Source: Micractinium sp. NFX-FRZ
Lineage: Eukaryota > Chlorophyta > Trebouxiophyceae > Chlorellales > Chlorellaceae
Assembly (NCBI GenBank): GCA_029339195.1
Contig: JAPTJF010000288.1
Location: forward strand, 1-64,000
Reading direction: 5' to 3'
Length of the DNA stretch: 64,000 nucleotides
A model generated the notes under the pieces. That model did not search any database, was not told the DNA's origin, and saw only the letters and a program-made list of their open reading frames with translations. Shown here piece by piece: positions 48,723-51,751 of the stretch. The number at the start of each line of letters is the position of its first letter. The first letter of the stretch is position 1. The position numbers and the translations under genes were made by a program.

Positions 48723-50993
48723 CAGCAACCCCCGTGCCTCCTGTAGCGCCCCCCTGCTTGCGCCCGCCCACATTCTGGGCGGCGCGTGGCCGGCTGCGGC
48801 AGCAGGGCCCCTCCACGCCACCCTGCCAGCCCACTCAGACCGCTGGCAGGGTTGCGCCCCTGCTGCCCCTCCACTTGTACGCACTCCTAAGCTACACTGC
48901 TCATCCTTTTCATTTCCCTGCCCCTCTTCCCCCCTTGTCGCCCGGCCCCTCTTTTCAGCCACCCGTTTCTGTTTAGTGGCTCAGTGCTTTCCCTGTCCCT
49001 GCGTGTAGCGCCCCCTCTCTCTGCCACCCCAGGCAGCAGCGGTCTCTGACCGCCCCGAGAGCCAATTCTTTGCCTTCCCTCCTTACAGCCCGCGCCTGCG
49101 CGCCCTCTTGAGAGCTGCGGCACCCTCGCCCGCCGTGGCGAGGCTCGTGCATCCCCCATCCCTCCGTGCCACACGCGCCTCGCCCTCCAGCGTGTCGCCG
49201 CCAGAGCCTGCGCTGGGAGCGTCCCATCGCTGCCGCAACAGCGCCCACCCCCGCCCCCTACCAATCCTTCCACCGACATCTCTCCACCCCATGTGCCAGG
49301 CTCCGCACGTGCCTGCCCGCCTTCCTGCCTGCCTGCCTGCCTGCCCTCCCCACCCATACATCCATCACCAAGCACCCCCCTATCCCAAGTCTTTCCTCCT
49401 CGCACACACCCGCACGGGGCAGCCCCTGCCGCCTCCTCTGCCCCTTTTTGCCTTGCGACAGCGCCCCCCCCCCCCCCCAACCCAGCAGCTTTTGCGCCCG
49501 TTTTGTAGAGGACAGCCGCCCCGCCACGCTCTCCCCCTCCAGTGTCCCTGTTTTGAGATGTCCCAGCAAGTCGCCCCACTGTGTGCCCCCTGCCCCCGGG
49601 TCTGGCTGCCTTGCAACCCCGTCACCCTCGTGCCCCCCCGTCTCCCTCTTTGGGCTTCCCTGCGGAGCATCCACGAGTGCCACGAGTGCGACAGCTGATA
49701 TCAGCACACCACCCCAAATTCCTGCTCATCCCCGTCTTAACTTCTACATGTAACCTTACAGCTGATCAGCCATGCATGATGTGAAGTTACTTGGTTGGCA
49801 TGCCTGACACCCTCAGGGGCTCAAGTTGGCCACCTGGGCGTTGGGGGCGAGGCGCAAAGGGTTTCTTCAGGCCCGCCTGGCAGGCTGGCAGGCAGGCAGG
49901 CTGGCTGGCTGGCCATGCATGGCAGGCTGGCAGACTGCCCACAGGGCACGGCTCACGGGCGGCCCTGAACTGCAGCCGGCGCTGCGAAACTCCTGCAGTC
50001 ACTAGCCATTCGATGGTCGAAACATTCCCAGACCAGGGCACGGCTGCTTGTTCGCAGAGGCCAGTGGGGAGTGGCACCTCTTCTTCAGCCCAGCACCCCG
50101 TCTCCCCACGCCCTGCTTGAGGCCTCAGCTCGACTCAATTCCCAGCAGGGGCCAGGGCTCATAAGAGTCGCTCGAACCGCCCACCCGCCCCGCTCTGCCG
50201 TGCCCTCCACACCTGCCTCCACCCAAGCATATGCCTCCACACAGCCGTCCCATGCTCCCTGCAGTCGCAGGCGTGCCTGGAGGAGACACCACCTCTCTCG
50301 TCGCATTGTTATTTCACTCATCCTCCTCGGCCTCAAGCTGCTGACACTAACATTACGTGCCTCGCTTCCGCCCCCCCATGGAACAGCTGCTGTCTGCTGG
50401 AGATTGCGCCAGACAGCATGGCCCCAGCTGGTGAACTAGTACAGGACCACCTGTAAGATTCACAGTTCACAGAACTTGTGGCGGCACTGGTTCAAGGGGG
50501 CTGTGACAGCAGGGGCATGAGAGCATCGATGCTCACATGACATGACGATATCGTCAGGAAAGAACCCGGATGCCACTCTTTTGCGGTACAGCCAGCCGCC
50601 ACACAAAGAAAGCTAGGCAGGGCGATTGAATGTGCTGGATTGTACGGATGCGGTAGGTAGGGAGCCGAGGTGGCCTGGAGGGAAGGTGGCCTCAACAGCA
50701 GGTCCCCACAAGTGTTGTGGGCAGAGAGAGGGCGCGGCGGAAGCATGCGGACTGCGAGGGGAAGGGCGTTCCCAGGCGCAGGCAACATCGTAGAATTGAG
50801 CTTAAAAATCGCACTAGGGGCGCTTTCCGACTCGTGAAGAGGCAGGACGGTGTTCCCTGCAAACATGTTCCGGGTGCGAATCGAACCTGCGTTGGAATTC
50901 AAAATTTTCAAGTGGAAGGGGTTCTGGGGTCTAGAGCTGCACTCTGTCTGTCATCAGCTGACAACGGCTGGTTCGGCCTTCTGTCAACGTGTT
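48723..50993. other. Long 3' flank of the DUF506 gene and empty interval
   Basis: No gene is supported. TGTAA at 49749-49753 fits the end of a roughly 1-kb DUF506 3' UTR. CCTG/GGCA-type simple repeats occur near 49325-49350 and 49885-49935. The tRNA gene starts at the right end of the interval. Confidence 0.5.
49749..49753 (+). terminator. TGTAA signal, probably of the DUF506 gene
   Basis: First TGTAA after the DUF506 stop, about 1 kb downstream. Confidence 0.5.
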
Positions 50994-51075
50994 TGCGAGA
51001 TGTCCCGAGTTCGATCCTTGGTAACTCCACACCCTGCATGGGGTTATAGCTCAGTGGTAGAGCGCTCGCTTCGCA
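50994..51075 (+). tRNA. trnA-CGC: Circularly permuted tRNA-Ala (anticodon CGC)
   Basis: The 3' half (50994-51029) comes first, then a 10-nt spacer (51030-51039), then the 5' half (51040-51075). Rejoined between positions 37 and 38, the 72-nt RNA folds perfectly: acceptor GGGGTTA with TAACTCC, including G3:U70, the main alanine identity pair, and A73; D stem GCTC/GAGC with a 7-nt loop; anticodon stem CTCGC/GCGAG with loop TTCGCAT; 5-nt variable loop; T stem CCGAG/CTTGG with loop TTCGATC. The B box (51007-51017) therefore precedes the A box (51047-51057). Permuted tRNA genes are known in the red alga Cyanidioschyzon, some prasinophytes and nucleomorphs, where a circular intermediate is cut by splicing endonuclease. 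Confidence 0.95.
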
Positions 51076-51079
51076 GATG

Positions 51080-51083
51080 TTTT
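51080..51083 (+). terminator. Short T run, RNA polymerase III terminator
   Basis: TTTT begins 5 nt after the end of the tRNA 5' half, the minimal Pol III stop, and fits transcription of the permuted gene as one precursor. Confidence 0.6.
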
Positions 51084-51297
51084 GTAGCTATCAGGGAGCG
51101 GGGAGGAGCAGCTGTGAGGCATGAATATGGGAAGCAGAGGAGGGTGATCCAGATGCCAAACAAGAGCAGTGGGTTCACTGCCTGCCCGCCATCCCTCCTA
51201 ACCTGACCCCACCCCACCCTTGCTGCTCCCAATGTGTTATTCTCGCGCAGCTGTCTATTCGGGGACATGTGTGCTACAAAGAAGACGACGGAGGAAT

Positions 51298-51302
51298 TTA
51301 CA
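51298..51302 (-). terminator. TGTAA signal of the LysM gene
   Basis: TTACA on the plus strand about 450 bp beyond the LysM stop codon. Confidence 0.5.
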
Positions 51303-51751
51303 GCCCGAGGGGCGTGGGGTTGAGGAAGCCAAAGGAAATTAAGCCAAAGGGCACCAGTCAGCTGCCATGCTAGGGCCCCTTTCAGAGAATGAACAAGTTG
51401 AGTCATGGATGTTACGGAAAAAAGGGAAGGACAGATGTGCGCACCGGCATCCGCCTTGCCCAGCAACACGCTGTGTGCCGCCTACTTGTGTGCTGCGCCA
51501 CACCGGGTGCAGGGGACAACCTGGTCGGTACCAGAGCAGTCCTTGGTCAGCCTGCACACGGGCACAAAAGAAGAGGTTGGGTGGGGGGTGGGGCGTGTCG
51601 GCAGCATGTGGTCCGGCAACCGAGCGGCACCAAAGCTCAACTCCCCTGGTTACCTTCTTCCCACTTTCAATTAATCATCCCTGCGGCAGTTTCCTGCCCC
51701 GTTGCCTGATGCCGCGCTACCAGTGTGCCACAGTTTGCCCCCGGCCCACAC

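Follow-up and report, generated by a model that had tools for sequence, protein, structure and literature searches.

At positions 50994-51083 of the DNA analysed here (the window, 64 kb in length), the two halves of a tRNA-Ala(CGC) lie in permuted order, with the 3' half ahead of the 5' half. This locus very probably represents a functional nuclear gene of the circularly permuted type II, with the junction at 37/38, and one of four copies in the genome. The functional reading is based on the gene order, the complete cloverleaf, covariation, the lack of a detected linear counterpart and the presence of candidate enzyme exons. Permuted tRNA genes as a kind are already known, and the locus is a further, well-supported example of this rare form; it extends the few permuted tRNA genes listed for eukaryotes by the isoacceptor Ala(CGC) and by an arrangement in several copies. 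Furthermore, it illustrates that genes for tRNAs which are probably indispensable to a green alga can escape the standard finders. An earlier note on this DNA had interpreted the locus as a permuted nuclear tRNA-Ala(CGC) gene that widens the known distribution of such genes; the first part of this interpretation stands, whereas the second is outdated.

The window corresponds to contig C288 of a 66-Mb assembly of Micractinium sp. NFX-FRZ comprising 838 contigs. Three of the ten window open reading frames (ORFs) tested matched Pfam families above cut-off (EMC7, PA and PDDEXK_6), and the contig is accordingly of nuclear type, as had been claimed for the gene. Organellar genes are carried by separate contigs, with mitochondrial genes such as nad9, nad3 and atpA at loci on C837 and plastid genes such as psaC, rpl20 and rps12 at loci on C838. 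These were named by eye from their translations, and nad9 and psaC were confirmed by further search. The second entry matched by psaC, 6zzx, is from Chlorella ohadii, which gives no more than a hint of the host's affinity. On the plastid contig, about 1.5 kb near position 64020 of C838 (locus L072) reads N and represents withheld or masked sequence.

The permuted locus and its detection

The following features were assigned in the window:

50901..50908, + strand: AT run AAAATTTT, 93 nt upstream of the gene; a possible, weakly indicated upstream promoter element
50987..50993, + strand: end of the leader, ACGTGTT, with CGTG at -6..-3; candidate relaxed bulge-helix for the splicing endonuclease
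50994..51029, + strand: 3' half of tRNA-Ala(CGC), positions 38-73 (3' strand of the anticodon stem, variable loop, T arm, 3' strand of the acceptor stem, A73); letters checked and called after rejoining; same sequence at 3 further genome places
51030..51039, + strand: intervening spacer of 10 nt, CACCCTGCAT, between the acceptor ends
51040..51075, + strand: 5' half of tRNA-Ala(CGC), positions 1-37 (5' strand of the acceptor stem, D arm); same sequence at 3 further places
51047-51057, + strand: A-box-like TAGCTCAGTGG, within the 5' half
51072-51074, + strand: anticodon CGC, within the 5' half
51080..51083, + strand: TTTT, likely RNA polymerase III terminator, beginning 5 nt past the 5' half; no T4 inside the gene

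Letters and coordinates agree with the order described previously, including the 10-nt spacer. The T arm of the 3' half carries the B-box-like sequence AGTTCGATCC, and CCA is not encoded in this half. When the halves are rejoined, ARAGORN calls a 72-nt tRNA-Ala(CGC) with the G3:U70 pair, A73 and the anticodon CGC, in which 21 of 21 stem pairs are standard; the fully paired cloverleaf proposed in the note is thereby reproduced. Another B-box-like sequence, GGTTCGATTC, is located on the minus strand at 50878-50887, about 107 nt upstream of the permuted gene; no T stem was seen around it by eye and no tRNA model matched there.

The expectation that standard finders overlook such genes was borne out in the window, where ARAGORN without introns called no tRNA and Rfam at gathering scores reported nothing. 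Allowing introns of up to 3000 nt, ARAGORN called a tRNA-Pro with a 1096-nt intron, which was taken as spurious. Detection of permuted genes was based on two covariance models, R1 and R2. Model R1 includes three of the genes it finds and R2 none of them, since the latter was built from 21 linear tRNAs of the assembly, nuclear and organellar, permuted in silico and with no real permuted gene among them. In a scan of all 64 kb with filters off, R2 returned 11 matches with E up to 5. This permuted-tRNA search, of the kind suggested in the note, gave the locus a score of 70.8 bits (rough E 1e-26), about 60 bits above the next-best place in the window, at 9.1 bits.

Other searches were less informative. 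A general tRNA search of the assembly was incomplete, with 63 of 639 candidates scored, and had 20 of its 64 rows outside C837 and C838. A chain of plant tRNAs had 0 matches in a search that is sensitive to near-identical DNA only and hence uninformative on absence. A pattern for the D arm of iMet was swamped by 214 places, the matches listed starting at 2 mismatches, and was discarded.

Further permuted tRNA genes in the assembly

At least nine permuted genes are present on seven contigs of the assembly, namely four for Ala(CGC), three for Cys(GCA) and two for Ser(AGA). In addition to the gene in the window, these are:

C155:118963-119044: permuted Ala(CGC), halves 100% identical, spacer of 8 nt
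C29:22377-22463: permuted Ala(CGC), halves 100% identical, spacer of 13 nt
C29:22725-22811: permuted Ala(CGC) on the opposite strand to the other C29 gene, halves 100% identical, spacer of 13 nt
C47, C180 and C376: three permuted Cys(GCA) genes, spacers of 15, 14 and 37 nt
C25: two permuted Ser(AGA) genes as an inverted pair, spacers of 6 and 6 nt, found via a Ser/Leu pattern

The junction lies at 37/38 in all nine, and each of the nine rejoined genes was called by ARAGORN as a complete tRNA with the expected anticodon, CCA not being encoded. Scores of R2 for the six Ala and Cys genes outside the window range from 64.9 to 70.7 bits; permuted Ser(AGA) scores 30.9 bits with this model, which has no long variable arms. 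A DNA search with the rejoined tRNA returned the halves at 100% identity in the four permuted genes together with a linear Ala(AGC) on C281 (85% identity).

A literal D-arm pattern, searched with up to 3 mismatches, occurred at 40 places versus 17 for the reversed control. Nine of the places were exact: two lie on the plastid contig, and the seven in nuclear DNA each belong to a permuted gene, namely to the four for Ala and the three for Cys(GCA). Loci were extracted for 30 of the 40 places, and R1 was run on 25 of them, the 5 omitted being on C837 or C838. Another pattern search yielded 17 places, 7 of which were searched with R1, and the Ser/Leu pattern yielded 25, from which the C25 pair alone was fetched. 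Because only some of the pattern places were fetched, the number of nine is a lower bound.

The spacers of the Ala genes (8, 10, 13 and 13 nt) are not conserved between the loci, and the flanks of the loci are dissimilar with the exception of the C29 pair. Comparison of the two C29 genes gave no difference in the halves (0 of 72 positions) and 16 differences among the 124 positions formed by the spacer and 110 nt of upstream sequence (Fisher p 6.5e-4). Halves that stay unchanged while the flanks diverge are therefore under constraint or subject to conversion. In the C155 gene and both C29 genes, letters 38-39 are repeated directly after the 5' half, so the exact cut is ambiguous by up to 2 nt. 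None of the nine permuted cores contains a T4, and in eight of them a T4 or T5 starts within 10 nt downstream; the exception is the plus-strand gene on C29, where TTT occurs at +5 and a T4 is not reached until +30.

Pairing was compared across the seven class I permuted genes (4 Ala and 3 Cys), in which all 147 of 147 cells pair. These genes are relatives of two kinds, and the cells are not independent events. Changes on both sides were found in 11 of the 21 pairs, compared with 0 or 1 when the partners are shifted by 1-3 columns. Eight of the 11 doubly changed pairs bridge the swapped halves, five in the acceptor and three in the anticodon stem. Compensatory changes in these two stems are also seen among the three Cys genes themselves.

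Convergent inverted tRNA pairs were observed three times, as permuted Ala genes at C29:22377-22811, as permuted Ser(AGA) genes at C25:204560-205600 and as linear Ser(GCT) genes at C714:245-772. The inverted arms of C29 are 92% alike over 236 bp, and those of C25 are identical around the genes. A lone stretch resembling the 5' half of tRNA-Glu(CTC), 97% over 34 nt, was noted at C246:61897-61930, with no partner half found by eye within 200 nt on each side. Neither this stretch nor a candidate on C170 is a tRNA gene according to ARAGORN or the permuted model. Two further tRNA-like loci stand apart. A stretch of 91 nt at C21:132004-132094 (L026) is read by ARAGORN as SeC when an 18-nt intron is assumed and as an unknown tRNA when introns are disallowed, its anticodon arm being indistinct, and a tRNA-Leu(TAA) on a large contig (C5:370915-371000, L023) has a D arm that looks plastid- or bacteria-like by eye.

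Linear counterparts and competing explanations

An intact linear tRNA-Ala(CGC) elsewhere in the genome had been named as evidence that would count against the gene, and none was found in the assembly, which is possibly incomplete, by DNA searches and pattern searches with up to 3 mismatches. Four places genome-wide match the contiguous Ala(CGC) anticodon arm when up to 3 mismatches are allowed, and one of them is the linear Ala(AGC). By eye, two of the other three keep four stem pairs and one keeps five, and one of the three carries the triplet CGC at the anticodon position; tests of the whole gene therefore matter at these partial arms. The 5' half stretch, likewise with up to 3 mismatches, occurs at 19 places, comprising the four permuted genes (exact), Ala(AGC) and 14 weaker ones. 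At the remaining 17 places (the 14 weaker ones and the three arms), neither ARAGORN nor R2 nor Rfam recognised a tRNA.

In the small sample examined, the codon GCG makes up 11 of the 23 Ala codons within stretches matched to Pfam and 84 of the 255 across the three whole ORFs. Inosine at position 34 does not read G, and Ala(AGC) alone would therefore not serve GCG. The permuted genes appear to be this genome's only supply of a tRNA that is in frequent use. A more far-reaching reading, which we regard as doubtful, is that the permuted form is the normal and only one for the whole isoacceptor families of Ala(CGC), Cys(GCA) and Ser(AGA), being present in multiple copies, spreading and homogenised without return to linear genes. 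If true, decoding of GCG, the commonest Ala codon in the small sample, would depend wholly on RNA circularisation, and the identical halves, unlike spacers and convergent inverted pairs would indicate that permuted tRNA genes are copied, or undergo gene conversion, by a route of their own.

The locus might also be explained without a functional permuted gene. It could consist of dead tRNA fragments, that is, of halves left by tandem duplication and deletion which are no longer expressed. One proposed origin of permuted genes is tandem duplication with subsequent loss of the outer halves (PMC3978253), and a lone Glu-like half does exist on C246, but dead halves are hard to reconcile with seven class I genes that show no non-standard stem pair, with compensatory changes and with nine successful tRNA calls out of nine rejoined genes. 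The identity of the halves in four Ala copies despite diverging flanks and the failure to find a linear Ala(CGC) point in the same direction, and we consider decay very unlikely. A still smaller chance is given to a tRNA-mimic non-coding RNA in the manner of bacterial YrlA (Y RNA-like), which has a tRNA-like domain resembling the D, T and acceptor arms (PMC8394870). YrlA (RF02553) was the best sub-threshold Rfam match within 50500-51400 (24.2 bits, E 0.012); however, this score is far from the gathering score of 69. The permuted genes moreover have an intact anticodon arm with U33 and a fitting anticodon (Ala with G3:U70, Cys, and Ser with a long variable arm), the anticodon stem covaries, and three different isoacceptors are represented.

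Least probable of all, and close to negligible, is an origin by chance or by an assembly artefact. Two sets, those on C29 and C25, are inverted pairs, a form that assembly can create, but two points speak against it: the nine permuted genes are spread over seven contigs and differ in their spacers and flanks, and a distance of about 60 bits separates the locus from the next place in the window.

Known permuted genes, proposed maturation and upstream sequences

The genome of Auxenochlorella is much smaller than the 66-Mb assembly analysed here. Permuted tRNA genes in this member of the class Trebouxiophyceae were reported in 2025 (PMC12636532, PMC12633428), and they pre-empt the claim that a trebouxiophyte host widens the known distribution. 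As in Micractinium, a trebouxiophyte is concerned; in strain UTEX 250-A, the genes were detected after tRNAscan-SE had given an incomplete tRNA set (PMC12636532). No other trebouxiophyte case was found by titles and abstract openings in a literature collection that omits most subscription papers.

Soma's review tabulates 34 permuted genes from six algae and one archaeon, among which Cys(GCA) and Ser(AGA) are present and Ala(CGC) is absent, and describes type II with a short spacer as the usual green-algal form (PMC3978253). The genes found here resemble those of the prasinophytes Ostreococcus and Micromonas (Maruyama et al. 2010, in PMC3978253) in having the 3' half first, in the 37/38 junction (with one exception in the prasinophytes) and in being nuclear. 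According to the same table, prasinophytes likewise permute Cys(GCA) and Ser(AGA), while Ala(CGC), which has four copies in the present genome, is missing from the table; spacers measure 11-64 bp there and 6-37 here (PMC3978253). Expression has been confirmed for some of the prasinophyte genes (PMC3978253). With Cyanidioschyzon merolae (Soma et al. 2007, in PMC3978253), they share the gene order, the T run past the 5' half and the presence of several genes for one tRNA, two for Gly(CCC) in that alga and four for Ala(CGC) here. In C. merolae, breaks occur at four sites and the permuted Ala gene is an Ala(TGC) of type IV (59/60), in contrast to nine of nine at 37/38 here (PMC3978253). Permuted Ser genes for Ser(AGA) and Ser(CGA) are also described from two chlorarachniophyte nucleomorphs; Ser(AGA) is broken at 37/38 as here, with a spacer of 5 bp compared to 6 nt (PMC4494063, PMC3978253). 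These nucleomorph genes differ in not being nuclear, and Ala and Cys are not listed for nucleomorphs in the review's table (PMC3978253). Since Cys(GCA) and Ser(AGA) are permuted in Micractinium as well as in prasinophytes or nucleomorphs, one can test whether these permutations go back to an early green alga or originated repeatedly.

Candidate exons for processing enzymes were detected in the assembly. SEN-type domains (PF01974) are encoded at two genome places, the translations of which contain YPGDPSLYHAQF and GADMVLYQRHPALTHSDY; judged by their signatures, we take the former stretch to be SEN34-like and the latter presumably to be SEN2-like. RtcB exons are located on C265 and C74, and one stretch on C74 holds four stops. 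In the proposed maturation, RNA polymerase III would produce one linear RNA consisting of leader, 3' half, spacer, 5' half and a trailer ending at the T run. In this precursor, the acceptor stem would form a hairpin closed by the 10-nt spacer CACCCTGCAT as its loop, and the anticodon stem would draw both ends together. The tRNA splicing endonuclease (SEN) would then remove leader and trailer at 37/38, and a ligase, for which the RtcB type is present, would join 37 to 38 to give a circle. Excision of the spacer from the acceptor loop by RNase P and tRNase Z and addition of CCA would lead to a mature product that reads GCG codons. The same route of linear transcript, 37/38 cleavage, circle, spacer excision by RNase P and tRNase Z and CCA addition is described in PMC3978253, and by analogy to it we infer the RNA steps of maturation in Micractinium sp. 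NFX-FRZ. A circular intermediate of this kind has been shown in C. merolae (PMC3978253).

Folding of the linear precursor (112 nt) revealed no preference for the permuted cloverleaf (z +1.22), 183 of 200 shuffles folding at least as well. The core cloverleaf lies 0.9 kcal/mol above the best predicted fold, and 13.6 above it in the Cys gene on C376.

The leaders of the Ala genes are otherwise unlike between the three loci compared, yet all four carry CGTG at -6..-3. This motif can pair with positions 32, 34 and 35 of the anticodon loop and in three of the four copies also with 36. The Cys leaders share GC at -6,-5, which pairs with loop positions 34 and 35 in all three genes. Per permuted gene, 2-4 of 5 possible pairs between leader and loop are formed, with 3 of 5 in the window and 2 of 5 in Ser. 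Random leaders on Ala and Cys loops reach 3 of 5 in 26-37% of draws and 4 of 5 in 8-10%, and the 3 of 5 of the window leader are matched by 37% of random leaders. Since random leaders often pair as well, leader pairing alone is weak; its recurrence amid unlike flanks carries more weight.

A motif learnt on the upstream regions of linear tRNA genes did not arrive at a single position and gave only a loose AT-rich signal. AT runs of at least 6 letters are located 45-130 nt upstream of 13 of the 18 linear and 5 of the 7 permuted genes examined; among 565 control stretches taken from the window, 6.7% contain such a run. For these counts, 2 of 20 linear rows were dropped (Leu on C5 with its plastid-like look and Trp on C19 near a contig end), the C29 and C25 pairs were each counted once, and Ser was represented by 85 nt of flank only. 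The runs loosely fit an upstream promoter common to linear and permuted genes, like that suggested for C. merolae (PMC3978253).
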